This document shows, piece after piece, positions 1,585 to 22,218 of a stretch of DNA of 25,312 nt. Numbering within the stretch: the stretch's first letter is position 1; every line of letters begins with the position of its first letter. The notes under the pieces were generated by a model that made no database searches, was not told the origin of the DNA, and saw only the letters and a program-made list of their open reading frames with translations. Source of the DNA: a virus; the IMG/VR virus record IMGVR_UViG_3300025120_006058, positions 1 through 25,312 of that record. One strand, given 5' to 3'. A program made the translations under genes and the position numbers.

Positions 1585-1699
1585 TTTTATTTTTTATAGC
1601 TTTCATTAACTTGTTTCTATTCTTCTCACCGATCTCTCGTACCTTCTTATTCCACTCTTCTATTTCTTTATCTATTTTTTTCTTTTTCTTTTTAGCCAT
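1577..1699 (-). CDS. 40-aa lysine-rich mini-protein after gp41
   Basis: A complete 40-residue frame starting at an ATG that overlaps the gp41 stop codon (TAATG) and ending in an 8-nt overlap with the next gene. The product starts with an uninterrupted run of six lysines after MA and is predicted helical and basic throughout, with an E/K/R-rich middle and one Trp. Both junctions are of the translational-coupling type common here, which is the main support. No family is recognised. Binding nucleic acid or the helicase is possible from charge and context but is inference. Confidence 0.6.
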   Translation of the reverse strand: MAKKKKKKIDKEIEEWNKKVREIGEKNRNKLMKAIKNKNA

Positions 1700-3096
1700 T
1701 ATATTTTAAAGTCTGAAAACTTATTAAGTCTTGCAGCTGTTTCTGAATTGTCGAATACTGACTTGTCAGGTTCATTCTGTTGGTTAGCGTCTACCATATC
1801 GTCTTGAGCCGCCTGTTCTACATCATAGACTCTCATCTTTGATCTATCAACACCCAACATAAACTTACGATTGATTGTCGGGTCATTATATCTATTCTTT
1901 AATTGTTTGATTAGAAATTGATTCTTCTTTTCTAGTTCTTCACTAGATATAATAGCGAACATAAAGTCAGCAGTTGCAGGTAGACCGAAACTTTCTGATG
2001 TATCTTCAAGACCAATGTCAGTAGAACCAAAACCTGTTCTTGTAGTTTGTGTTGCCGAGAAGATAGGTAAGTTATGTTCTACAGCGAGACCTCTAAGTTC
2101 TTCAGCAATAGACTTAACGATTGTATATGAATTAACAGATGACCCTGCCTTGAGTCTAGATGATACACATAGATTTAAATAATCAATGTAGATAACATCT
2201 GGTTTAAAATCTTTCTTTATTGCAAGTTCATTAAGTAGAATTTTAAAATGACCAGCGTGAGCAGAAGCCGTAGGATATTCTTTGATGATAAGTTTGCCTT
2301 TAGTCTTTTCTTCTAGTTTCTTAATCTTATCCTGATACATAATCTTAGGTAGTTCAGGTAGATCACTCATAGATACATTCAAAAGATTTGCGTCTATTCT
2401 TTCAGCAATTCTCTCTTCAGCCATTTCTAAAGTGATATACAATACATTCTTAGCATTCAATAAGTTTGCAGCTGCAAGATGAGCCATAAACAAAGTCTTA
2501 CCAACACCAGTACCTGCAAGAGCAATATTCAATGTCTTTGTTGGAACACCACCACGAGTAATACGATTCATAAAGTCTAAATCAAATTCAACTCGTTCTT
2601 CTTTTGTATGGTAAAAATCATATCGAGCAGATGATTCATCTATGAAGTCATGCCCTATCTTTTGATCGAATGATACTGATAATGCATTAGATAATAATTC
2701 TGGTAAATATTCTGGTGTGTGAGTTTTATCTTTGCCATCAAGTATCTGAATACCATCCATGATAGCATTATGTATGGCACGATCTTTACAAAACTTTTCT
2801 GTTGTCTGTACTAACCATTCTAGATTTATCTCTTCAGGATTAAATGTAGCGATTGTACTTGTAATATTTTGAAACTCACTATCATTAATATCTTTTCTTG
2901 CATTTAATTCAATGGCAAGTGTTTCATTTGTAGGTGCTGAATTATACTTATCATAGAAAAGACTAATCTCTCTAAAGATTAATTTCTCTAGTCTATCATT
3001 AAAGTAGTCCTCTTTTAAGAAAGGTAAGGCCTTTCTAGCGTAGGCTTCTGTGTGTATGAGGTGCTTTAATGCTGTTCTCTCAATTCTCTCTTCCAT
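1699..3096 (-). CDS. 41: Replicative DNA helicase, T4 gp41-like (DnaB family)
   Basis: A 465-residue DnaB-type hexameric helicase that unwinds DNA ahead of the replisome and partners with primase. The N-terminal roughly 170 residues form the DnaB-type N domain. The RecA-like motor follows with Walker A AGTGVGKT (residues 194-201) and Walker B VIYIDY (Asp305). A later SATQTTR segment fits the helicase sensor region. The length matches T4 gp41 (about 475). Its start overlaps the preceding gene by 17 nt, and its stop overlaps the start of the lysine-rich mini-gene. It is expressed from the uvsX promoter or by read-through. No matching primase gene (gp61) lies in the window. Confidence 0.95.
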   Translation of the reverse strand: MEERIERTALKHLIHTEAYARKALPFLKEDYFNDRLEKLIFREISLFYDKYNSAPTNETLAIELNARKDINDSEFQNITSTIATFNPEEINLEWLVQTTEKFCKDRAIHNAIMDGIQILDGKDKTHTPEYLPELLSNALSVSFDQKIGHDFIDESSARYDFYHTKEERVEFDLDFMNRITRGGVPTKTLNIALAGTGVGKTLFMAHLAAANLLNAKNVLYITLEMAEERIAERIDANLLNVSMSDLPELPKIMYQDKIKKLEEKTKGKLIIKEYPTASAHAGHFKILLNELAIKKDFKPDVIYIDYLNLCVSSRLKAGSSVNSYTIVKSIAEELRGLAVEHNLPIFSATQTTRTGFGSTDIGLEDTSESFGLPATADFMFAIISSEELEKKNQFLIKQLKNRYNDPTINRKFMLGVDRSKMRVYDVEQAAQDDMVDANQQNEPDKSVFDNSETAARLNKFSDFKI

Positions 3097-3388
3097 TCAA
3101 CTCCTGATCCATTACTTGTACTAAAATATCTCCAATGTGATTTATAAACTCTTGACATTCGGTATCTGCATTTTGATAATTCTTATCTACTACATAATCA
3201 AATATCATAGGTAAGTTACCATCTTCATTTTCTTCTTTTGCAAATTGAACATTACCATAATGATATATTATATCAGTATAAGGTCCGCTTGTCAACTTAA
3301 TTGAGGCCATCTCCTGGTTTTGTTTCTCAACAAAAACATAATCTACTTCGTGTTTAGGTAGTTTCTGTTTCTTCTGTTTCGACACCAT
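3080..3388 (-). CDS. Unknown 102-aa protein between uvsX and gp41
   Basis: An uncharacterised small protein with a basic N-terminus ([11 protein letters not shown]) and an acidic remainder. An upstream in-frame ATG at 3415 exists, but it has no ribosome binding site and lies deep inside uvsX. The ATG at 3388 is preceded by AAGAG at usable spacing and is preferred. The gene overlaps the 3' end of uvsX by 35 nt and the start of gp41 by 17 nt. I recall T4-like cyanophages with a small unknown gene in this position, so a role linked to recombination or helicase loading is possible but unproven. It has no similarity I can see to UvsY or gp59. Confidence 0.7.
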
Positions 3389-4394
3389 ATTTGAACTCTT
3401 TGGCAGCAGCCTCATCTAATTGTTTTAAAATCTCTTCAGTAAAGTATTTCGTTGGATCGTTGTTGATGGTTTTCCCAAAAGTTTTTGAGCCATCTGGCAA
3501 TTCTATTCTTGTAGAAACTTGTTTAAATATACCATACTTTAACGCAAGGTCTAATAGACCGTAGTACTTATCTAAACCTTTGTCGTATGTAAGTCTGACA
3601 TCAACCATTTTATTCTCTTTAGTTAATCTTGACTTGTGGTTTTTACAATGAATTATATTACCTATAATTTCTGTCCCGTCTTTTTCTTTTCTCTTAGAAA
3701 GATAGACGATAGAACTAGCCGCATATTTAAGACCAGATCCGCCGCCCATCTCTTTAGTCGGGAACATAGAACCAATGACATCGTAGGTGTGATTGGTAAT
3801 AATAAGTGGCACTTGTGCCTTGCCAAGTTTCAATGTTAAGACTCTAAATGCAGCCTTAACAATTTGTGATCTTGTCATATCTCTTGTTTCTTTTCCTGCC
3901 TCGGTATCTTCCATCTCTTTTGTGGTTGATAACATACCTAGACTATCTAAGACGAGCAACATAGGTTTTCTATCTGAAACATCTTGCTCAATATATTTGT
4001 CTAACACTCTAATTGCTTGGTGTCTGAATTCTTGTACTGTGGTTACTGGCATAATAATCATACGAGAAGAATCAATACCTCTATCTTCAATCATATCTTT
4101 TGTCAATGCAGATTCACTCTCAAAGTAAATAACACCAGCACCTGGATTTTGTTTTAGAAAATTATCAACTACACCCAATACAAAGAATGTCTTACCTGTA
4201 GCACTCTCACCAGCAAGGGCAGTAATCTTGTTTGCAGGTAGACCACCGTGAATGGTACCTGATAATAGTCCATTGAATATATAACTTCCAGTATCTATGA
4301 AGTTAGAAACATCACCTGCCTCAACGCCTTCAGATACTATACTGGCATATTCATTACCAGTCTCTTTAATAATTTGTTTGAAAAAATCAGTCAT
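3354..4394 (-). CDS. uvsX: Recombinase UvsX (RecA/Rad51 family)
   Basis: A 346-residue RecA-family strand-exchange protein that forms filaments on single-stranded DNA during recombination-dependent replication and repair. Walker A GESATGKT is at residues 62-69 and Walker B LLVLDSLG has Asp150. The segments [10 protein letters not shown] and [13 protein letters not shown] match the RecA-fold strands for ATP hydrolysis and DNA-binding loops. The C-terminus is acidic (EETETT), as in RecA/UvsX proteins. The start at 4394 is supported by GGGAG 6-7 nt upstream. It is first in an operon with the 102-aa gene and gp41 and has its own promoter at 4418-4446. Confidence 0.95.
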
Positions 4395-4417: not shown

Positions 4418-4446
4418 ATTATAACATATTTATAAGAAAAGATCAA
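4418..4446 (-). promoter_or_regulatory. Sigma70-like promoter of uvsX
   Basis: The minus strand has TTGATC (4441-4446), a 17-nt spacer and TATAAT (4418-4423) with TG one base upstream (extended -10). The expected start point near 4411 leaves about a 17-nt leader with GGGAG before uvsX. The TGA stop of the upstream methyltransferase gene lies inside the -35 box. A TATAAATA late-type 8-mer occurs in the spacer (4427-4434), so a late promoter may be nested in the early one. Confidence 0.7.
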
Positions 4447-5732
4447 GCGAAAAAGCCTTCTAATGTAGATTTTCTTGAGTCTTTAAATAAATCTAAATCT
4501 TTGTCACCAAAGCACCAAACATTCTCTATGAAAATCATATTCATAAATTCTGCTTTTTCTTTTTCATCTTTGAATAGTTTATCTGATTTAGGTCGTTGCA
4601 TAATTCTCATACCAATTTGACCTAAGAATTTGTCTTTAAGATGATTTACCAATTCATCACTAGAACGATAACGAGTACCTTTAATCTTAGGGTCCATTAT
4701 GTTGCAAAACATAAATCTGGATACCTTCATACTCTTTTCTGCAACTGGTAAATAAAAATCATCACGCCACTTCTCATACTCATTAAACTTAAACCAAGAT
4801 TGATTCTCCTCTTTCTCACCACCCTTGTTATATTCTTCAGTAGAGAAATAAGGTGGACTAGTAAAGGCAACATCTATTGGTGGCAGTTCATCATATGGTA
4901 AATCTTCAGCCCCACAATTCCATATCTTAACTTTCTTAGGTTTAGGTAATAAACTATTATAGAAATCTATTTGTTTCATATACCTTGCATATGTATTAGG
5001 ATTAGGATCACAACCATAATACTCTTCAGCATTACTACCGAAGAAACCTGCAAGTCTATCACCCCAACCACAACTTGTATCTAATACTCTTTTTGCTTCA
5101 GTCATTTCATAAACACACTTAGCAACCATAGGTTTAAATTGTGTTGCAATATATGTACCCAATCTAAAAGCAGATAGGTAACTGGCCTCATCTAATTTAC
5201 CACCTCTAAATTCTTCTTTACCTTCTACAACAACTTTCTTAACACCATTGATACCTCGCCACATAGGACCAAAACACTTCCAGATATCTTTTGCAGTACC
5301 ATTTTGCCATACTTCTATTGGTGCTCTAAACCCATAACTTGAGCAAGCCAATCTTAAATCTTGATGATAATAATTACTAACTGAATTAAATTTAGATGGG
5401 CAATCTATAATGCCTAGTCCATATTTGTCAAATGAATATTCAAGATCATCATACTTTTCAAAGATTTTCTTTTCTACTTGCTCAATAGGTGTGCAATAGG
5501 AACTGTAATCAGTTTTCTTTAGAGATGACATACCTGCACGAACATCTGCTTCACTAATTCGTTTAAGTGGGAACTCTGGCCTTACTTTGGCAATGTATTC
5601 TGCAAGTGTCCAGCGAAAGACATCACGCCCAAATTCATTAGTATATCTATCGAATGATTGATTGTCTATGATAGGTAGTTTTACCTCGTTAGCGTGTCGC
5701 TCTAGGCGTTTAAATAGTGTTTCATTTAACAT
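4443..5732 (-). CDS. SAM-dependent DNA methyltransferase (SPPY-type) with clamp-binding-like C-terminus
   Basis: A protein of about 429 residues with motif I VLDTSCGWGDRLAGFFG (SAM binding, about residues 216-232) followed by motif IV FTSPPYF (about 290-296), typical of amino-methyltransferases acting on N6-adenine or N4-cytosine. It resembles the second methyltransferase at 21127-22218 in both motifs and in the region just before motif I. The last residues, STLEGFFA, closely resemble the DNA polymerase tail ASLESFFG, which in T4 gp43 is the sliding-clamp binding peptide. The start is uncertain: ATG at 5732 lies right after the nucleosidase stop; ATG at 5747 and a TTG at 5765 are upstream alternatives that overlap it. 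The gene sits between an SAH/MTA nucleosidase and uvsX. Confidence 0.85.
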   Translation of the reverse strand: MLNETLFKRLERHANEVKLPIIDNQSFDRYTNEFGRDVFRWTLAEYIAKVRPEFPLKRISEADVRAGMSSLKKTDYSSYCTPIEQVEKKIFEKYDDLEYSFDKYGLGIIDCPSKFNSVSNYYHQDLRLACSSYGFRAPIEVWQNGTAKDIWKCFGPMWRGINGVKKVVVEGKEEFRGGKLDEASYLSAFRLGTYIATQFKPMVAKCVYEMTEAKRVLDTSCGWGDRLAGFFGSNAEEYYGCDPNPNTYARYMKQIDFYNSLLPKPKKVKIWNCGAEDLPYDELPPIDVAFTSPPYFSTEEYNKGGEKEENQSWFKFNEYEKWRDDFYLPVAEKSMKVSRFMFCNIMDPKIKGTRYRSSDELVNHLKDKFLGQIGMRIMQRPKSDKLFKDEKEKAEFMNMIFIENVWCFGDKDLDLFKDSRKSTLEGFFA

Positions 5733-5733
5733 A

Positions 5734-6255
5734 TTATGGGTTAACATATTCTTTAAATAGTTCAACTCCTTTTTTACAATTCTCTATCCATTGATCTGCG
5801 TTTCCATCATCTGAAATATATTTAAAACATCTAAACTTTATTTTATATTCTTCACATACAGACGCCAAGGCATATGCCTCCATATCAGCAACATCATATT
5901 CAGCAGTAAACTGACTATCACCTTCCCAAAAGTTATCACCTGTACCACAAACAAGATTACTTGGTAGAACCAGACCTGTATCTATTGCACCTTTACCAAA
6001 AGGTGTCTGATAAGTTTCAAATCCTAATTGTGTTGCGTTCATATCTCTTTGTATAAATTTTTTAATCTCATATATTTTACCGACTTCAACTCTTCTAGAA
6101 CATTTAGCAGCCGTGCCATAGTTAACAATAAACTTAGGTTCATTCTTGATAATATAATCTACTAAAACTCTAGTAGCATTTATCTTACCAACTCCTGTAA
6201 TTAAAACATCTTGACCTAAACCTATAATTTCTTGTGGAAGTGCTGATACTATCAT
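5734..6255 (-). CDS. Short MTA/SAH nucleosidase-like protein (PNP/UDP phosphorylase superfamily)
   Basis: A 173-residue member of the nucleoside phosphorylase superfamily; bacterial MTA/SAH nucleosidases are about 230 residues. Visible hallmarks are GVGKINAT (residues 21-28), NYGTAA (45-50), the DMEAYA segment with the purine/ribose-binding Glu126, and ISDDGN with the catalytic Asp149. The deletion falls in the N-terminal part, where the usual MxxEhxxh segment is compressed. The likely reaction is hydrolysis of S-adenosylhomocysteine or methylthioadenosine to adenine. It abuts a SAM-dependent methyltransferase gene, so removing the inhibitory SAH product is a sensible role, though this is inferred. 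It overlaps thyX by 4 nt (ATGA). Confidence 0.8.
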   Translation of the reverse strand: MIVSALPQEIIGLGQDVLITGVGKINATRVLVDYIIKNEPKFIVNYGTAAKCSRRVEVGKIYEIKKFIQRDMNATQLGFETYQTPFGKGAIDTGLVLPSNLVCGTGDNFWEGDSQFTAEYDVADMEAYALASVCEEYKIKFRCFKYISDDGNADQWIENCKKGVELFKEYVNP

Positions 6256-6908
6256 ACGCCTTTAATTGATTCAATTCCTTTTTCTGGACATAGATATTTC
6301 CAACTCACAGGAAAATCTTCTCGCATAAATCTATCTATACCTTCAGCAATAAATCTTGTTTCTTTTTGTGTATCAGGTTTACATCTTAGATTACATACAC
6401 GAGCAAATGCATATAAAGTTCCTGACCATATCCATTCAGTCATCATACTTTGTGGTAATACACTTCTTGCTATTTCAGGTGCAACATCAAAGTAAATAAG
6501 TTCTCTATATATTTTCGTTGAAGTCTCCATATGTTCTTCATATCTTTTAATCACTTCAGGTGGTAGATCAATAAGACCATCAGAACCTTGTTTAGAATCT
6601 TTAGGTCGACCTCGCCACTCTTGTACCTTTTGTATTTCAGGTTCATCTGAAACATATCTTCTTGAGACTTCATTCCAAGATAACCCTACTTGATGTTTTA
6701 CTAATTGTCTTGCAACATACAAAGGTGCCTTAATTCTAAACTGTGCTGAAGCGTGTGCAAATGGTGACCAATGGTCGTGTGCTACTAGATACTTAATAAG
6801 TTTTTCATCCTTATCAGTCATCTCCTCAGCAATTTTAGAATACGAAACTCTGGCCGCATTTACTACGGATAGATCACTACCCATTTTATCTAATCGTTCT
6901 ATTATCAT
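6252..6908 (-). CDS. thyX: FAD-dependent thymidylate synthase ThyX
   Basis: A 218-residue flavin-dependent thymidylate synthase, which methylates dUMP to dTMP using methylenetetrahydrofolate and NADPH. The signature region is KHQVGLSWNEVSRRY (residues 71-85), a variant of the RHRxxSxNxxSxR motif with the first Arg replaced by Lys and the third residue by Gln, and one extra residue inside. HDHWSPFAHASAQFRI (44-59) is the typical upstream H-x-SxFEH-like helix and the length is normal. It supplies dTTP for replication of an AT-rich genome. It overlaps both neighbours by 4 nt in the gp43 operon. Confidence 0.93.
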   Translation of the reverse strand: MIIERLDKMGSDLSVVNAARVSYSKIAEEMTDKDEKLIKYLVAHDHWSPFAHASAQFRIKAPLYVARQLVKHQVGLSWNEVSRRYVSDEPEIQKVQEWRGRPKDSKQGSDGLIDLPPEVIKRYEEHMETSTKIYRELIYFDVAPEIARSVLPQSMMTEWIWSGTLYAFARVCNLRCKPDTQKETRFIAEGIDRFMREDFPVSWKYLCPEKGIESIKGV

Positions 6909-7102
6909 ACTCTTCTCTTTCTAAAAAATCTTCGCCATAGTGCTGATCTAGTCATTGACACAATCATAAATACAAAAGCAATCTGAAGGTTCTCAAAGAT
7001 TGTTGGATGTAAATCAAACAAAGGAAATATTATTAACATAATTATAATAGATAAAAAATATCCACTACCTACATCTATTACACTTTCAAATACATCACTC
7101 AT
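6905..7102 (-). CDS. Small two-helix membrane protein (DUF7220-like)
   Basis: A 65-residue protein with two hydrophobic segments (about residues 14-30 and 38-52) and a C-terminal basic motif SMTRSALWRRFFRKRR. The S-x-x-RSxxxRRxF ending recalls a small phage membrane family I know as DUF7220, but this is from memory. Topology is probably two inner-membrane helices with a cytoplasmic basic tail. It overlaps the gp43 stop and the thyX start by 4 nt each, so all three are translationally coupled. Function unknown. Confidence 0.75.
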   Translation of the reverse strand: MSDVFESVIDVGSGYFLSIIIMLIIFPLFDLHPTIFENLQIAFVFMIVSMTRSALWRRFFRKRRV

Positions 7103-9591
7103 CCGAAAAAACTTTCTAGTGAGGCTTGTCGTTCAAAGTTCCATCCGATTGCACTCACTATAAATCTTAATGGATCTAAAAATGATTTCTCGAATTGAGC
7201 GTCATAATCTACATACTGTTTTAAACCAAACTCTCTAGGTAGTTTAGTGGGGAAAGATATAACATCATCTTTAAATGGGTTAGGCATTTTCAATGTTAAG
7301 AATTTAATCTTATCGCCTTCTTTAATAGTTTCATACTTATTTAGCAATTTACTATCTTGTCTTAAATTTAGATTGTAGATCAATGCACCTTTCACATGGC
7401 GAGGGGTACTCTTTCTATAAATGTGTGTATTATCTTGATACTTTAAAAGACCATTAACACTTCTTGGGAAAGATACTTCTTCAACAGGCAGTTCAATAAA
7501 TTCTTTTTTGAATTCATCTATAAACTCTATCAAAGCATTTTCATCTTTAGTCATTATAACTTTTAGTGCCTCTTTAATTTTATCTCTACACGCTTTTGGT
7601 GTAGATGATTTGACTGCCTCAATACCCATAATCTTCAATTTAGGTTCATCATAATCAACACCTTCAGAATTATATACATTAAGAATATATCTTTTCTTAG
7701 CAGTCCAGATACCTTTGTTAGCAATCACTTCTTTATCCATGACCATCTTTTGTTTGTAAGCGTGTGTATAGTCAGCCAACTCTTGATACTTCTCATCAAT
7801 ATATGGTTTAAGTTTCTGATCACAAAATTTATCTAGAATATTTACAGTCTTTTTGATATCATCACCAAGGCCCATTTTCTTAACAACATCACCCATACGA
7901 ATATAGATTGAGTCTGTATCTGAAGCAACAACATAATCTGCCTTTTCAGTTTTCAATAACTTATTAAGATATTCATTGACTCGTCTTTGTATAAATCTAA
8001 TTGAGTATTGACCTGCAAGTGTGATACCTTCAGCCTGTCGAACATCATAGTACCGACAATACTTATTACCGATAGCACCATAGGCACTATTCAATGCAAT
8101 CTTTCTTGCCATTTGAATATTGTTATACTTAGAAATATTATTACTAATAGTTTTATTACCTTTATCTTTTTGTTGTTTCTTTTGCTCAATGATCATCAAC
8201 TTTTTATATTTACTTCTATCTGTATAATACTTCTCCATCAACTCACCTAAGAAACCAGGTTTATCAGTTCTAAATATCGCACCGTTAGGTGTCATAGTTC
8301 TTTTATCAAATGCAGAAAAGTCAACATCACCTTCAAGCATTCTATCTACACTTGCAAGTTCAGGTTGAAAACCTATAATAGTTTCTGGCGATATATTGTA
8401 TTGCATAATCAAATGTGGATACAGACTGTTCAAATCATAACTTACAACCCAATCGTGAAAACCTACAATAGGATCTTTCACATAAGCACCTTCATAACCT
8501 CTAGCGTTTTCGTGATCTTCTTTCTGTGGTACAACAATACCTTTATCTTTTAAGAAATTAAATATGATTGCATCCCACATGGTTACTTGTTGGAATACTT
8601 CTTGAAAATTTACCTTTGCCTCATAGGCCATAGTCAAATGTAATTCAATTAGTTTCATTTTATCTTCCAACTGATCAACTAGTTCTACATCTTGAATATT
8701 ATAATCTACGAATGATTGATAATCATTGGTGTACCATTCTTTGAAACTATCATAAGGATTCTCATCTTTGAAATCACCGAGTTCTACACCAGCAACAAAG
8801 TTAAGTCTATATGATTCTAGTTTTGTGTAAGTGTATTTCTTATACAAGTCTAGATAATCTAAGATTGATACACCAAGAATATCGTAATGTTCTATTTCAC
8901 CACCGAATTGTTTGTTTTGTTTTTTACCTTCAACAACGCCCCAAGGACTTAGTTTCAATGATTCACTTTCGCCGAGTAAATAATTAATACGATTAATTAG
9001 ATAAGGCATATCAAAGAACTTACAGTTCCAACCGGTGACAATATCAGGATCATAGTCTGCCCAGAATTTAATAAATGCTTCTAGTAAAGACTGTTCAGTA
9101 GGAAATTGATGATAGGTTACTTTATCATTATCATTTTTATATTCACCTATACCGAATACGATTATATCCTTTGTTGAATGAGATTTTATGGTAACGCATA
9201 ACAAAGGCTCGATTGCAGTTTTTGGATCAGGAAATCCATTTGCACATTCTGTTTCAATGTCAATAGTAATAGTATTTAATTTAGAAAGATCCCACTCTAT
9301 ATTGCCTTTGAATTCATCTGATATGAAGGCGTGTTGATGTCTAGTATTACCGAAGTATTCAAACCCGGTGACACCATCATATTGCTTCAACCACTCTCTC
9401 GCTTCATATGTAGAATCGAATTTGATTCTCTCACATGGCCGACCATCTAGAGTTTTGTATTTTGTTTCTTTTTTAACTGGTACGAAAAGAGAGGGTTTAT
9501 AACTTATTCGTTTGTGAATTCTTTTACCGTTTACTATGGCACGAACCAATAGACGACCACGGTGTGGTATGACGGATGTGTAGAACTTCAT
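7099..9591 (-). CDS. 43: DNA polymerase, family B, T4 gp43-like
   Basis: The replicative polymerase with 3'-5' proofreading, 830 residues. Exonuclease motifs: Exo I DIE (111-113), Exo II with N189 and D194, Exo III YNIQD (297-301). Polymerase motifs: A DLNSLYP (386-392), B with K497 and NSAYG (501-505), C DTDS (558-561). All catalytic residues are intact. The C-terminus ASLESFFG corresponds to the clamp-binding tail of T4 gp43. It starts at the only sensible ATG, 6 nt after a TATAAT box, with no Shine-Dalgarno, so the mRNA is predicted leaderless. In T4 gp43 represses its own translation via a leader hairpin; no room for such an operator exists downstream of this promoter. Confidence 0.98.
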   Translation of the reverse strand: MKFYTSVIPHRGRLLVRAIVNGKRIHKRISYKPSLFVPVKKETKYKTLDGRPCERIKFDSTYEAREWLKQYDGVTGFEYFGNTRHQHAFISDEFKGNIEWDLSKLNTITIDIETECANGFPDPKTAIEPLLCVTIKSHSTKDIIVFGIGEYKNDNDKVTYHQFPTEQSLLEAFIKFWADYDPDIVTGWNCKFFDMPYLINRINYLLGESESLKLSPWGVVEGKKQNKQFGGEIEHYDILGVSILDYLDLYKKYTYTKLESYRLNFVAGVELGDFKDENPYDSFKEWYTNDYQSFVDYNIQDVELVDQLEDKMKLIELHLTMAYEAKVNFQEVFQQVTMWDAIIFNFLKDKGIVVPQKEDHENARGYEGAYVKDPIVGFHDWVVSYDLNSLYPHLIMQYNISPETIIGFQPELASVDRMLEGDVDFSAFDKRTMTPNGAIFRTDKPGFLGELMEKYYTDRSKYKKLMIIEQKKQQKDKGNKTISNNISKYNNIQMARKIALNSAYGAIGNKYCRYYDVRQAEGITLAGQYSIRFIQRRVNEYLNKLLKTEKADYVVASDTDSIYIRMGDVVKKMGLGDDIKKTVNILDKFCDQKLKPYIDEKYQELADYTHAYKQKMVMDKEVIANKGIWTAKKRYILNVYNSEGVDYDEPKLKIMGIEAVKSSTPKACRDKIKEALKVIMTKDENALIEFIDEFKKEFIELPVEEVSFPRSVNGLLKYQDNTHIYRKSTPRHVKGALIYNLNLRQDSKLLNKYETIKEGDKIKFLTLKMPNPFKDDVISFPTKLPREFGLKQYVDYDAQFEKSFLDPLRFIVSAIGWNFERQASLESFFG

Positions 9592-9941: not shown

Positions 9942-11344
9942 TATTTTTCCTTTTGTTTTTCAGCAACAAATGGTGTAGTCAATAAGTATTTTCTAGCAGG
10001 ATTAACCATAACATTTAATCGCTTCATAAATTCCCTATCTAATAAGATAGGTGTTCGTTCTGCTCTATCGTCAATCGTAAAGAGAACATTCTCATAGATG
10101 GTGCCTGCGAATTCAACATCTAATTCTATTAGTGGTCGGTCTTCATCATAGTTTCTAAGACCACCCACTTTAATATTGTCCATTTTAATAATGTCAGTTG
10201 TATATTTTTTACCTAATAAGGACCAACTGACTTTCTTACCTTGAATATTTATCTTGTCTCCATGTATAACATTTCGACCACTATTACCTGTATCAAATTT
10301 AGCAACTAAATCTAATCCAGCAATTCTAATCATTTCTTTAAACCCACATTCAACAGGTACATGAACCCAATTATCTCTATCTTCAAAAAATTCTATAATC
10401 TCTTTTGATATATTTCTTTTCGTTGCCTGTTCAACTCCTTCAGTACCAGCAGAAGAGTTTACTTCAATAAAAAATGGTTCGTCTTTTTCTCTATTCTTAG
10501 AAGGTATAAAATCAACACCAGTCCATACACCACCAACTGCCTTTGCAGCCTCAATACATTTTTCGATTTCTAAATCTGTTAACTCTAAATCACTAGCGTC
10601 AGCACCTTGAGATATATTACTTCTAAAGTCACCTTCTAGTACATCCCGTCTCATGGCTGCAATAACTTTACCACCAAGAACATGAACTCTAGCGTCATAG
10701 TCTGTCTTAATAAATTCTTGTAGAAGTAAATCAGAATCTTCATCTTGTTTGTTTAATACTTGTACTAAACTTACTAAAGATTTTTCACTCTCTACGAATA
10801 GAACACCAACACCTTTTGATCCTCTAAGTGTTTTAAGTATGATAGGAAAGTCTGTATCTAATTGTTCAAATGCTTCTTTGACATTATCAGGATCAGTTAT
10901 TAAAACAGTCTTAGGTTGTCTTAACCCTACATCACTAAGTCTTAATGAGGTTCTATACTTATCAGCACAGGTATTAATTGTCTTTCTAGAGTTTACACAT
11001 ACGATACCTGCCTTTTCTAATACAGATACGAGGTCTAACCAAGAGTCTTTTCTAGTTATTGAACCTCTAATAACAGCGACAGTATCTTTGTGTGATACTT
11101 CAAAACCTTTTTTATCATCTTTGTTATGTATTCTACGAACACCATCTTCTAGCGTTGTATAACCACCAGATAATTTATATAGATAATTCTTATAGCCTTT
11201 CTTATCAGCCTCTTCTCTTAATCTATCAGCAGTATGAAACTCCTTTGCCTTTTCTGGCTCGTCTGTAATAATAACTAACCTGAACGCTTTAGATTTACTC
11301 TTCTTCGCTTCTGTTAGATAGTCATTAAACTTAATTGGTTTCAT
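9941..11344 (-). CDS. RimK-like ATP-grasp ligase fused to a retropepsin-like (RimK-associated protease) domain
   Basis: A 467-residue two-domain protein. Residues 20-320 form an ATP-grasp ligase: FPIILKTLRGSKGVGV (167-181) is the ATP-binding lysine/glycine loop, LLLQEFI (207-212) the hinge region, and FFIEVNSSAG (291-300) holds the metal-binding E and N. RimK adds glutamates to the C-terminus of ribosomal protein S6 in bacteria. Residues about 338-460 resemble the RimK-linked aspartyl/zinc protease domain (Pfam PF05618-like): FDTGNSG (DTG 351-353) and PILLDREFM (432-440). In cellular genomes these two domains are often separate neighbouring genes. Substrate unknown; ribosomal protein modification is the leading guess. 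It overlaps regA by 14 nt. Confidence 0.85.
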   Translation of the reverse strand: MKPIKFNDYLTEAKKSKSKAFRLVIITDEPEKAKEFHTADRLREEADKKGYKNYLYKLSGGYTTLEDGVRRIHNKDDKKGFEVSHKDTVAVIRGSITRKDSWLDLVSVLEKAGIVCVNSRKTINTCADKYRTSLRLSDVGLRQPKTVLITDPDNVKEAFEQLDTDFPIILKTLRGSKGVGVLFVESEKSLVSLVQVLNKQDEDSDLLLQEFIKTDYDARVHVLGGKVIAAMRRDVLEGDFRSNISQGADASDLELTDLEIEKCIEAAKAVGGVWTGVDFIPSKNREKDEPFFIEVNSSAGTEGVEQATKRNISKEIIEFFEDRDNWVHVPVECGFKEMIRIAGLDLVAKFDTGNSGRNVIHGDKINIQGKKVSWSLLGKKYTTDIIKMDNIKVGGLRNYDEDRPLIELDVEFAGTIYENVLFTIDDRAERTPILLDREFMKRLNVMVNPARKYLLTTPFVAEKQKEK

Positions 11345-11750
11345 CTACCTTTTTACCTATGTTATACTTAGTCTCTAATGTCCAGTTAGCTTTATCTTTA
11401 AATGCAATAACTTTTATTTGAGACAATGGTGCTTTATCGTTAGCAACATCAGGACTAATCATACTAATTAATCCCCAATCAGCAAGTAGCTGTGTAATTG
11501 TATTTCTTCTTTGTATATCGTTGTCAGATAAATTACTATGTTTACCATCTAGGGCAAATAGTTCTTTAAAATGTACTATGAAATATCGGCCTTGTTTATG
11601 TAATATATGGCACGATTGAAATAGTTTTTTGTCTTTTCTAGACGCCACACCAATTCTTGTTAGTGTTTCTCGAACCTTCAGGAAATCATCTGGTTCTTTT
11701 AAAGAGACCTCGAGCATACTCTCTGGACTCCATTGTATATCTTCACTCAT
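11331..11750 (-). CDS. regA: Translational repressor RegA
   Basis: A 139-residue homologue of T4 RegA, an RNA-binding protein that represses translation of many early phage mRNAs by binding near their start codons. From memory of T4 RegA, the segments KEPDDFLKVRETLTRIGVA, DKKLFQSCHILHKQGRYFIVHFKE and LLADWGLI match closely. The protein has about 11 extra N-terminal residues relative to T4. The ATG at 11750 is kept because GGTGGA stands 5 nt upstream, although ATG at 11717 would match the T4 length. It overlaps gp62 by 4 nt, conserving the T4 order 45-44-62-regA with insertions. Confidence 0.95.
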   Translation of the reverse strand: MSEDIQWSPESMLEVSLKEPDDFLKVRETLTRIGVASRKDKKLFQSCHILHKQGRYFIVHFKELFALDGKHSNLSDNDIQRRNTITQLLADWGLISMISPDVANDKAPLSQIKVIAFKDKANWTLETKYNIGKKVDETN

Positions 11751-12142
11751 TTTGTTCCACCTTTAAATAATTTTTCTTTAATAATATTAATTTGTTCCTT
11801 AGAGAGGATCTTTAAAGCGTCTTTTGCTTTATCATTACTGTACCCATAATACTCTTTTACCAAATCAATGTCTTTCAATTTAGACGCTCTTATGAACGGA
11901 CTAAATCGTTTCTTTTTTCTAACACTATTTATATAAAATTGAAACTGAATATCTTTGTCAAGGTGGTGACTTCGATTCATTTCATTGGATAACATAAGAG
12001 TATCTGGGAATGCAGACATAATCTTATTGGTGATATAGGCAGGATATTTCTTTGCCCACATCTGATCGTCTGATTTAACCAGGTCTTCTTTTGTGTAATT
12101 GATTGCGTTAAGGTAGTGTTTTAACTCATAGGGATTTGACAT
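11747..12142 (-). CDS. 62: Clamp loader small subunit gp62
   Basis: A 131-residue protein between gp44/accessory genes and regA, the conserved position of gp62, which with gp44 loads the gp45 clamp onto DNA. The central segment (FPDTLMLSNEMN) and IRASKLKDIDLVKEYYGYSNDKAKDALKIL fit the short gp62 type of T4-like cyanophages; T4 gp62 is about 187 residues. No catalytic motif is expected, since ATP hydrolysis is by gp44. It overlaps the peroxiredoxin gene by 17 nt. The coding sequence contains a TATAAATA box at 11926-11933 inside a 17-mer also found at the promoter at 1303-1319. Confidence 0.85.
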   Translation of the reverse strand: MSNPYELKHYLNAINYTKEDLVKSDDQMWAKKYPAYITNKIMSAFPDTLMLSNEMNRSHHLDKDIQFQFYINSVRKKKRFSPFIRASKLKDIDLVKEYYGYSNDKAKDALKILSKEQINIIKEKLFKGGTK

Positions 12143-12964: not shown

Positions 12965-13900
12965 TTATTTAAATTTGCATTGACTCATAATTTCAGTCAA
13001 GCAGGCAACAAGATTAATCTCTTGATCTGCCACAAAAGCAGACTTGTATGAATAGTCTGCCAATATTAATACAGCGTGAGGTATAGTTTCTGATTCTAAG
13101 TTCTCATACATTGTATCATATATTCGTCTGAATACTACAACTGGATCATTATCTAGATTGTTGACTACCCACTTTCTCATATTGGTAAAGTCTTTTTCTT
13201 TTAATAATAATATTAGTTTGTTTAAGTTATCATCTGAAATATTTGCTAGTATACCTGTATCTATCTTACCACTTACAGAATATCTTTGTAATTCATTTAG
13301 TATTCTTCGATAGTCAGGAAAATGTTTGTTAATAAGTTCAGCAACAACTGCCTCATCAAAAGGTATAGTTTGCTCTTTAAGAATAATGCCAACCTTTTGA
13401 AACAGCTTACTTGCAAGGACTGGTCTATCTTTATTAGCAATCTTGAAATCTATTGTTGAAAATCTACTATGTAGTGGTTCAATCAGTCTATTCTTGAAAT
13501 TACAAGTAAGAATAAATCTACAATTCTTGTGGAACTCTTCTATGAAACCACGCATAGCAGGTTGAGTCGATTGTGGGTTTAGATAATCTGCCTCATCTAG
13601 TATAACAACCTTCTTACCACCTGATAATGATACCGTGGAGGCGAAGTTTTTGATCTTGGTTCGAAGTGTGTCAATACCAGATTCTTCAGAACCGTTGATA
13701 AACATATAGTCAGCATTCATCTGCTCACACAATGCTCTTGCAACGGTAGTCTTACCACACCCAGGAGGACCTGCAAGTAGTAAGTTTGATATCTCACCTC
13801 TATCTACAAAGGACTGAAAGGTCTCTTTGAGATCCGTTGGTAAGATACATTCATCAATAGTTTGTGGTCGATACTGTTCGACCCATAAGAAATCACTCAT
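12965..13900 (-). CDS. 44: Clamp loader ATPase subunit gp44 (AAA+)
   Basis: A 311-residue AAA+ ATPase of the RFC/gp44 family that opens and loads the gp45 sliding clamp. Walker A GPPGCGKT (44-51), the DEAD form of Walker B (VVILDEADYL, DEAD at 102-105), sensor 1 LTCNF (131-135) and the RFC-type arginine finger in HSRF are all present. VEQYRPQTIDECILP at the N-terminus is typical of RFC small subunits. The length equals T4 gp44 (319). It overlaps the start-side neighbour by 4 nt. Confidence 0.95.
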   Translation of the reverse strand: MSDFLWVEQYRPQTIDECILPTDLKETFQSFVDRGEISNLLLAGPPGCGKTTVARALCEQMNADYMFINGSEESGIDTLRTKIKNFASTVSLSGGKKVVILDEADYLNPQSTQPAMRGFIEEFHKNCRFILTCNFKNRLIEPLHSRFSTIDFKIANKDRPVLASKLFQKVGIILKEQTIPFDEAVVAELINKHFPDYRRILNELQRYSVSGKIDTGILANISDDNLNKLILLLKEKDFTNMRKWVVNNLDNDPVVVFRRIYDTMYENLESETIPHAVLILADYSYKSAFVADQEINLVACLTEIMSQCKFK

Positions 13901-14184: not shown

Positions 14185-14368
14185 ATAATGCTACTAGCGT
14201 TCTATACTTACTTTGTGCCTTTGCTAGTGCTTCTACTTTCTTTTCAACTGTTTCAATATAGTCAATGTGTTCAGCAACACCTTGTGGGTTGTCAAAGAAT
14301 GTTTTTAATTCTGCCTTACCCATTTCGATATCTGCTTCAACTTTTTTTATTAGTGCTTCTTTAATCAT
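14174..14368 (-). CDS. Unknown 64-aa helical protein downstream of gp45
   Basis: A 64-residue, almost entirely helical, charged protein: an N-terminal helix rich in K/E, then EHIDYIETVEKKVEALAKAQSKYRTLVALYDN, which looks like a short coiled coil. It overlaps gp45 by 8 nt and the membrane protein gene by 11 nt. I recall small conserved helical proteins at this place in T4-like cyanophages, but no function is assigned. Overlap architecture and coding-like composition support it as a real gene. Confidence 0.75.
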   Translation of the reverse strand: MIKEALIKKVEADIEMGKAELKTFFDNPQGVAEHIDYIETVEKKVEALAKAQSKYRTLVALYDN

Positions 14369-15041
14369 TTTTTACCTTACTATCTGGTTCTAGTGCAATC
14401 CAATATTCAATTGGTTTCACTTTGTTTTTAAAGTGTGATATTGATTTACTTGATACGGCAACATCATAATCACCTGATACGATTTTTAAATTCTCAATCT
14501 TGAAATTAAAAGTAAAATCAGCAGCCGCTTCAGTACCTACAAATTCTTCATATGAATTAGAAGAATTCTTTTTATCGTGTACTTTAAGAATTACATCTTG
14601 ACCTTTAACACCAACTAGTGATAGATCAGGCAACTTCATAATCGCAGCCATCTTCATAAGTTTAGCAAGTATGTCATTCTTTAATTCAAAAGAAACTTCA
14701 GCGTCTGGCATTATTACATCTTTTTGAGGAGATACAACTACACTTTCATCTGAAAAGAAATATTTTGCTTTAGACTTTGATCCTTCAGAACCAACTGTCA
14801 TAAATTTTTCATTAGCCATATCGATATCTGGTTTATCTATTGCAGACACAATGCCTAATAATTCTGATAGATCATATATAGCAAATTGTTTATCAAATGC
14901 TTCTGATATCGTTGCCTTTGCTAGTATGTTCTTCATTGTTGAGATAGTGGATAATTCACTACCTGGTTTCACTAGAATATTTGTATTGATCTCCGAAAAG
15001 TTTTTCAATACTTCTAATGTTTGGTCACTTATTTTCATCAT
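14361..15041 (-). CDS. 45: Sliding clamp gp45 (DNA polymerase processivity factor)
   Basis: A roughly 226-residue homologue of T4 gp45 (228), the trimeric ring that tethers polymerase to DNA and in T4 also activates late transcription. The N-terminus MKISDQTLEVLKNFSEINTNILVKPG matches T4 gp45's MKLSKDTxxLLKNFxxIN as I recall it. Two clamp-like halves rich in alternating beta strands follow. The frame extends to an ATG at 15053, but GAGG at 6-9 nt favours ATG 15041 or the adjacent 15038; the latter best fits T4. It is the first replication gene after the hairpin-rich leader and overlaps the DUF3310 gene. Confidence 0.92.
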   Translation of the reverse strand: MMKISDQTLEVLKNFSEINTNILVKPGSELSTISTMKNILAKATISEAFDKQFAIYDLSELLGIVSAIDKPDIDMANEKFMTVGSEGSKSKAKYFFSDESVVVSPQKDVIMPDAEVSFELKNDILAKLMKMAAIMKLPDLSLVGVKGQDVILKVHDKKNSSNSYEEFVGTEAAADFTFNFKIENLKIVSGDYDVAVSSKSISHFKNKVKPIEYWIALEPDSKVKND

Positions 15042-21041: not shown

Positions 21042-21155
21042 CTACCAAACCGCAACAATAAATACAACTATCATAAAGACAATAAATGCCCAGGTGTCTA
21101 GTTTATACTTGTCAATATACTTATCTTTATTTTTGAAAAATGAAAGTAGGCTCAT
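21042..21155 (-). CDS. 37-aa single-pass membrane mini-protein
   Basis: A small protein of a charged N-terminal half (SFFKNKDKYIDKYKLD) and a C-terminal hydrophobic helix (TWAFIVFMIVVFIVAVW), a tail-anchored layout. A longer frame from 21248 exists, but AGGAAG lies 5 nt before ATG 21155, which decides the start. It overlaps the methyltransferase gene by 29 nt. No family is recognised. Confidence 0.65.
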   Translation of the reverse strand: MSLLSFFKNKDKYIDKYKLDTWAFIVFMIVVFIVAVW

Positions 21156-22218
21156 ATTTTCTTCCTGGTATATTTGGTCTTTCGTATCGACCCATATATT
21201 TCTGTTTCTGTTTAGTCTCTTGAACACCATCGAGTGTTGATACGGCACTACCCCCTTGTTGAGTAGATAGTGATAACCACCAAGTATCAGTATGTTTAAA
21301 CCCTATCTCTGTGGCAAGGTCTACTGTATCTTCTTCGAATGTTTTATACTGTTTTGTATTTGCAACATTAAGAGCAAGAAACTTACCTGGCTTCAATGCA
21401 TGATAAGCATTGGCAATCGTTTTCTTTAAAAACTTTTCTTTCCATTCTTCAGATGTATCGAACTTAATACTAGACTGTTCTGGTTCATCACCATATGCTT
21501 CCCAACCAAAGTATGGTGGACTTGTAAATACAAAGTCTATACTGTTCTCATTAGGCATATATGTTTCACTACCTTGTCTTAATAGTGAATACTCTTTATG
21601 TTCGTGGCCGTAGTCATTTCTTATCATAGCAAGGCCTTCGTATGTAGGTATACAAGGATCGGTACCGATATAGTTTACACCAGCCGCAATCGCACCTAGT
21701 AGTCTACCCCCATAACCCATACTTGGATCCCATACTGTACCTGCTTCAGTACCTTCTAGTGGACTATCTTTATCAACAAAGATATCGTACATAGCAGCTG
21801 CAGCCGTAGGTCTAAAGTTAGATACCATTTGAGTACCTGTGTATCTTCTTAACATAGACCTCATATCTGAGTCTGTAATCTGGTGTGCTGGTTTCTTTTT
21901 AAAGAATGTACCAGTAAGTATCTTGTTGATACCTTTCTTTAGATGTTCTTCATCATCCCATATCTCTAGTGGTGTTTTCATTTTACCACACTTGATACCC
22001 CAACTATGTGGCATATAAGACCATGCAAGATTCAGACCATGTGCTGATTGACCTATGATTTTATTCTTTCTATCAATTAGTGTATCTCGTTTAAAGTTTA
22101 CTAATTGATTAAAGATATTATCTCGCCAGTTTCTTTCAGTAGGATAGACAGGAAAACCTTTTCGTTTCCAGTCATTATGTGCTTGTTGTAGTGTATCTAC
22201 TTCTTCAATTACTATCAT
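21127..22218 (-). CDS. SAM-dependent DNA methyltransferase (second SPPY-type)
   Basis: A 363-residue methyltransferase. Motif I is TVWDPSMGYGGRLLGAIAAG followed by YIGTDP; motif IV is FVFTSPPYFGWEAYG. It shares with the 4443-5732 protein the 'GxGxRL' loop, 'Y-x-G-x-DP-x-x-x-TY' and 'FTSPPYF', plus a region before motif I with F-[KR]-P-x-x-A-x-x-x-Y. Likely N6-adenine or N4-cytosine methylation of phage or host DNA. No restriction gene is adjacent. Unlike the other copy it lacks the clamp-binding-like tail. The ATG overlaps the GNAT stop by 14 nt. Confidence 0.85.
   Translation of the reverse strand: MIVIEEVDTLQQAHNDWKRKGFPVYPTERNWRDNIFNQLVNFKRDTLIDRKNKIIGQSAHGLNLAWSYMPHSWGIKCGKMKTPLEIWDDEEHLKKGINKILTGTFFKKKPAHQITDSDMRSMLRRYTGTQMVSNFRPTAAAAMYDIFVDKDSPLEGTEAGTVWDPSMGYGGRLLGAIAAGVNYIGTDPCIPTYEGLAMIRNDYGHEHKEYSLLRQGSETYMPNENSIDFVFTSPPYFGWEAYGDEPEQSSIKFDTSEEWKEKFLKKTIANAYHALKPGKFLALNVANTKQYKTFEEDTVDLATEIGFKHTDTWWLSLSTQQGGSAVSTLDGVQETKQKQKYMGRYERPNIPGRKYEPTFIFQK

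Follow-up and report, generated by a model that had tools for sequence, protein, structure and literature searches.

We examined a 25.3 kb contig of a marine virus (IMG/VR record IMGVR_UViG_3300025120_006058; the whole of this stretch is called the window here) that carries a T4-type replication block on its minus strand. A methyltransferase encoded there, MTase 1, ends in a short peptide that aligns position by position with the end of the phage's own DNA polymerase, gp43. We consider it likely, with a probability of roughly 0.78, that this gp43-type docking peptide ties MTase 1 to new DNA through the gp45 sliding clamp, and that related enzymes are tied likewise; from the sequences we infer gp45 binding, a DNA substrate and coupling to replication. 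The peptide lies beyond the enzyme fold, is conserved, is nearly confined to polymerase and modification genes and is absent both from the homologues of phages sampled outside the T4 group and from the second methyltransferase, MTase 2, of these phages. The genes listed below, MTase 1, gp43, gp45 and MTase 2 included, all lie on the minus strand; the preliminary description of this DNA left this unstated. The features that concern the tail are as follows.

4443-5732, minus strand: MTase 1, a 429-amino-acid S-adenosylmethionine (SAM)-dependent amino-methyltransferase with motif I DTSCGWGD, motif IV TSPPYF and a C-terminal clamp-like tail
4446-4469, minus strand: codons of the last eight residues of MTase 1, STLEGFFA, the clamp-binding-like tail (sequence)
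4446-4508, minus strand: C-terminal extension of MTase 1, residues 409-429, some 20 residues long and lying past the fold (alignment and DSSP of the model)
7099-9591, minus strand: gp43, family-B DNA polymerase, 830 amino acids, ending ASLESFFG (PF00136, 6.6e-31; PF03104, 1.1e-25)
7102-7125, minus strand: codons of the gp43 tail ASLESFFG, counterpart of T4 gp43 ASLDFLFG (sequence)
14361-15041, minus strand: gp45 sliding clamp, 226 amino acids, the proposed docking partner (phrog_223, 2.2e-73; PF09116)
21127-22218, minus strand: MTase 2, 363 amino acids, ending TFIFQK, untailed, the internal negative control

The C-terminus of MTase 1 reads ...DSRKSTLEGFFA and that of gp43 reads ...ERQASLESFFG; the endings STLEGFFA and ASLESFFG on which the preliminary description relied are exact. 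T4 gp43 ends KASLDFLFG, T4 gp55 has PSLDFLY near its end, and A-S-L-D-F-L-F-G (T4 gp43), A-S-L-E-S-F-F-G (the phage's own gp43) and S-T-L-E-G-F-F-A (MTase 1) can be aligned residue for residue. The tails of T4 gp43, gp55 and gp33 are gp45-binding epitopes and are mutually interchangeable (PMC2988020), and the gp45-binding motif has been written as LDFL (PMC9690074). At its extreme C-terminus MTase 1 has the SLDxLF / LDFL form of T4-type gp45-clamp ligands. Like the T4 motif, its tail is short, hydrophobic/acidic and carried on a flexible linker, although the motif is SLDxLF in T4 and T/SLExFF here (PMC2988020, PMC9690074). The carriers also differ, being the polymerase and RNA-polymerase factors in T4 and a methyltransferase and other DNA-modification enzymes here. 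In the reference pelagiphage HTVC008M, the annotated genes that finish in this way are gp43 (SNLEDFF) and gp55 (SKLEYFMQ). The clamp that a ligand of this class requires is encoded on the contig together with its loader (gp62 and a gp44-like protein), and it matches solved structures of T4 gp45 (1czd, E 4.4e-19) and RB69 gp45 (1b77/1b8h, E 4.8e-19).

For MTase 1, about 100 relatives were gathered from IMG/VR, with identity down to about 67%. The preliminary description had proposed conservation of the last eight residues among homologues as a test; xL[DE]xFF, followed by at most one further residue, is kept in 64 of the 70 MTase 1-family C-termini that are distinct in DNA, and the clamp-tail reading came through this and every other sequence test that was run. 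The positions around the core vary (G/A/S, T/N, D/E, E/G/N/D/K), and the preceding linker differs in sequence and length while the motif holds, as expected of a clamp ligand; one subclade, whose members end RRATLF, is the exception. Codon changes at L (TTA/CTT/CTA) and at F (TTT/TTC) are synonymous. Near-identical copies alone were ruled out as the source of this conservation, since L, F and F hold at these identities and with differing codons. Only the core positions are constrained; a window of six codons, variable positions included, ranks 60 of 136 by nonsynonymous diversity (pN) and is not unusually conserved. MTase 1, gp43 and gp45 genes occur together on contigs L003, L016, L018, L021, L025 and L028. 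A scan of GTDB gave one MTase 1 relative, on a contig labelled as a Neomarinimicrobiota metagenome-assembled genome that is probably a phage contig, given its phage gp43.

MTase 1 lies between gp43 and uvsX, a place occupied in HTVC008M by an unrelated gene, and its start at 5732 is backed by the N-termini of its relatives, M-x-(N/D)-(E/K)-T-L. As in amino-methyltransferases generally, DTSCGWGD (SAM motif I) and TSPPYF (motif IV) are present, and both are invariant in 24 relatives; from these motifs the enzyme probably acts on DNA, not on RNA or protein. In an AlphaFold2 (AF2) model built on a 24-sequence alignment, with a mean predicted local distance difference test (pLDDT) score of 82, DSSP places the last strand at residues 400-408. 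A short helix at 424-428 covers LEGFF, and the final nine residues have a pLDDT of about 60, the tail being disordered in this model. The model, together with an alignment with untailed homologues, rules out that the tail is part of the methyltransferase fold, and places it outside the folded domain as in other clamp ligands. The methyltransferases of L029 and L030 are diverged from MTase 1 in the N-terminal half and nearly identical to it in the C-terminal half, a pattern that suggests recombination within the gene.

The untailed second methyltransferase had been put forward as an internal contrast, and it now serves better in that role, since MTase 2 proved to be a true homologue of MTase 1 (27% identity over 250 amino acids, E 9e-16). 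None of 51 MTase 2 relatives in the same phage group has the tail, and MTase 2 stops at the same last strand as the Bacteroides phage and Vibrio phage homologues, without any extension. Phage amino-methyltransferases of the phrog_12517 / PF01555 type share with MTase 1 a catalytic half containing TSPPYF, but the members checked outside the group end at the last beta strand, untailed. MTase 2 matches phrog_12517, as does one MTase 1 relative, weakly.

To count the tail, a strict motif, xL[DE]xFFx?$, was applied to open reading frames (ORFs) of at least 100 amino acids in the fetched IMG/VR loci, each distinct 40-residue C-terminus being taken once. It was present in 76 of 82 polymerase and 48 of 52 MTase 1 C-termini. 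Among all other ORFs there was a single match in 1,094, against an expectation of 0.045 for shuffled C-termini; the matching gene belongs to a TET cluster. When the motif was loosened, 9 of the 1,094 matched, most of them again from TET clusters.

The same ending recurs on other modification enzymes. In some phages the gene directly after MTase 1 is a tailed Mom (PF25680, E 3e-50; phrog_1384, E 2.6e-41), with endings such as NNLDEFFA, ATLESFFE and SNLNKFFK. Among Mom proteins of the fetched contigs, 21 of 45 distinct C-termini carry the strict motif and 37 of 45 the looser form. Mu-type Mom, from phages without this clamp, has no tail in any of 30 cases and Mu Mom stops about 50 residues earlier; the Mom proteins of four further phages are also untailed. 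The cultured Methylophilales phage Melnitz (MZ577097) combines gp43 ending TTLEDFFG, Mom ending ATLEGFF and a Tet_JBP protein (PF12851) ending SGNLNDFLGE, whose gene follows an HhaI-like C5-cytosine methyltransferase (PF00145) that is itself untailed. IMG/VR relatives of TET with a readable C-terminus have the loose motif in 35 of 38 distinct C-termini and the strict one in 10 of 38 (SGNLNDFLGE, SGNLENFFE and similar), while two small phages, HTVC112P and P12024L, have untailed TETs. Downstream, the TET-associated glycosyltransferase (TAGT; PF20691, 1.6e-11) ends NSLESFMS, SSLDGFMD and similar. The clamp-tail reading of MTase 1 is supported independently by Mom, TET and TAGT proteins.

Some further endings were noted. 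Three families without a Pfam match in TET clusters are tailed (L224, 5241-6122, GLDGFMD; L227, 8700-9977, SLDGFMD; L237, 5966-7222, TLDAFMT) and are candidates for new 5-hydroxymethylcytosine-modifying transferases. Among terrestrial T4-like phages, the TET-like protein of Cr30 (L272, 1826-3154) ends QTGATLF and that of DLP6 (L271, 1931-3277) ends AATLGDFFV; the ATLF ending, seen in Cr30 TET and in the RRATLF subclade of MTase 1, could represent a short alternative clamp motif. Adjoining a tailed Mom gene, L149 encodes at 4869-5861 a 331-amino-acid putative methyltransferase with an NPPF motif, ending TGATLDNFFGAI, with no convincing Pfam match. It was not counted as a further family, and no other relative was found in IMG/VR.

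A short hydrophobic C-terminus might resemble the polymerase tail by chance, and the motif does have only about four fixed positions. This is contradicted by the conservation of the tail and by its recurrence in unrelated families: L, F and F change mainly synonymously across the 70 distinct C-termini, four unrelated modification families are tailed and other ORFs yield the one strict match given above. We accord chance next to no weight. We incline instead, with less assurance than for MTase 1 itself, to the broader view that T4-like phages, chiefly marine, have repeatedly and independently added the gp43-type clamp peptide to unrelated modifiers. These would include the amino-methyltransferase, Mom, the TET/JBP dioxygenase, TAGT and possibly other glycosyltransferases; together they would form, behind the replication fork, a modification assembly line organised by the clamp, and from the tail one could predict which uncharacterised genes of such phages work on nascent DNA.

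The tail might also bind elsewhere, in a similar groove of a different protein (the host DnaN clamp, for instance), or be a C-terminal degradation or localisation signal. Hydrophobic C-terminal peptides are in general capable of such roles, and two endings on modification enzymes of Nonlabens phage P12024L, QLEIF and QQTLF, resemble the bacterial clamp motif. The MTase 1 tail, however, matches that of the phage's polymerase at each position and does not contain the Gln found in bacterial QL[SD]LF, and the untailed MTase 2 and Mu-type Mom indicate that such a tail is no general feature of these enzymes. We regard a partner or role of this kind as quite improbable. The tail likewise departs from the canonical PCNA-interacting protein (PIP) box, QxxhxxFF, as the Gln position in the MTase linkers is mostly K, and also V, M or Q. 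In P12024L (L274), a 35.7 kb phage, a TAGT-like enzyme at 1864-2622 ends NSNQLEIF and the next methyltransferase, at 2624-3259, ends HQSQQTLF. Both endings resemble QL[SD]LF, and phages without a clamp of their own may dock modification enzymes on that of the host.

If MTase 1 is a gp45 ligand, the xL[DE]xFF peptide on its flexible C-terminal linker would dock on the gp45 that the phage itself encodes, in its ligand pocket, and the clamp would keep the enzyme on freshly replicated, double-stranded and still unmodified phage DNA. Travelling with the clamp, MTase 1 would reach a raised local concentration on unmodified DNA, and modification would track synthesis closely enough to outpace host restriction. 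The Mom, TET/JBP 5-methylcytosine dioxygenase and TAGT enzymes of related T4-like phages would have acquired this docking peptide too. Alternatively, the tail may dock on gp45 for some purpose other than methylation coupled to replication: the enzyme may search by sliding on clamps left behind on DNA, as T4 late transcription uses them, or be stored there as in a depot, or it may compete with gp43, gp55 or ligase. T4 gp45 does serve both replication and late transcription (PMC2988020), and clamp binding by the T4 alpha-glucosyltransferase (alpha-GT) did not account for its share of modification (PMC13216743). Yet it is mainly enzymes modifying DNA after replication that carry the tails, and the genes of MTase and TET lie mostly close to gp43, which fits the modification of new DNA; we judge the depot or competition scheme unlikely.

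Besides the T4 tails and the phrog_12517-type enzymes, two known systems come close. T4 alpha-GT binds gp45 (Sommer 2004), as a pull-down has confirmed (PMC13216743), and is thus a gp45-associated phage DNA-modification enzyme of the kind proposed for MTase 1, but from another enzyme family. Mammalian DNMT1 is a DNA methyltransferase brought to a sliding clamp, PCNA, by a short peptide (PMC9690074, PMC4575159). DNMT1 is a C5-cytosine enzyme with an N-terminal PIP motif, whereas MTase 1 is an amino-methyltransferase with a C-terminal gp43-type motif that lacks the PIP Gln. In one system PCNA binding by DNMT1 was reported to be dispensable for maintenance methylation (PMC4575159).

Several points weigh against the docking of MTase 1 on gp45 at new DNA. 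T4 alpha-GT has no gp43-like tail (it ends FKEQFDIITK), and its mode of binding therefore differs from the gp43 type; a 2026 study attributed its dominance mostly to expression and not to clamp binding (PMC13216743), which cautions against presuming a large effect of clamp binding. MTase 1 matches PF01555 at E 3.4e-4 and 21.1 bits, under the curated cut-off of 26.7. A Foldseek search against the PDB returned generic SAM methyltransferases, many of them RNA enzymes, and a substrate call by this route was rejected because fold matches cannot separate DNA from RNA. The contrast between synonymous (pS 0.79) and nonsynonymous (pN 0.003) diversity at the core L, F, F positions comes from sequences that have the motif and is partly circular, though just one subclade was excluded. 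The motif is also short and family members share descent, so that the counts above are not independent events. Finally, the 6 exceptions among the 70 C-termini form a single subclade, all ending RRATLF. On these contigs gp43 keeps its tail (ASLESFFE, ATLEAFFG), as do the neighbouring Mom proteins, some slightly degenerate, and the MTase tail is therefore dispensable in this subclade. L111, a close relative, has the full tail, and the RRATLF ending therefore looks like a loss of the tail.

The docking peptide itself is known; its proposed client class, DNA-modification enzymes, is new. No description of a gp45-type tail on a methyltransferase, Mom, TET or TAGT of a phage came up in a literature search, although subscription journals were thinly covered and this is weak evidence of absence. 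When modification follows replication, a phage has to reach every new stretch of its DNA before host nucleases do. The proposed reading is that the marking of DNA may be physically coupled to its copying. If so, a clamp tag common to several modification families would explain how phages outrun nucleases, would tie hypermodification in phages to the replisome and would provide a simple sequence tag by which modification genes still hidden in viral dark matter could be spotted. Natural contrasts are on offer in the tailed and untailed methyltransferases of one phage and in the subclade that lost its MTase tail.

The remaining genes of the replication block are listed here.

1699-3096, minus strand: gp41-like helicase
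3354-4394, minus strand: UvsX-like protein
11331-11750, minus strand: RegA
11747-12142, minus strand: gp62 clamp-loader small subunit (PF16790, 6e-10)
12965-13900, minus strand: gp44-like clamp-loader ATPase (position and sequence; the syntenic gene of HTVC008M carries a clamp-loader annotation)

Among cultured phages, the polymerases closest to gp43 come from Synechococcus phages (about 52%) and HTVC008M (about 50%). Directly upstream of MTase 1 lies a 173-amino-acid nucleoside-phosphorylase-like protein (PF01048; 5734-6255), which is adjoined by a ThyX-like thymidylate synthase (6252-6908). The gp41-like helicase ends RLNKFSDFKI, and comparable F-x-D-F endings are seen in HTVC008M (KKFQDFQY) and L070 (GQFSDFKI), which suggests a second conserved C-terminal peptide.

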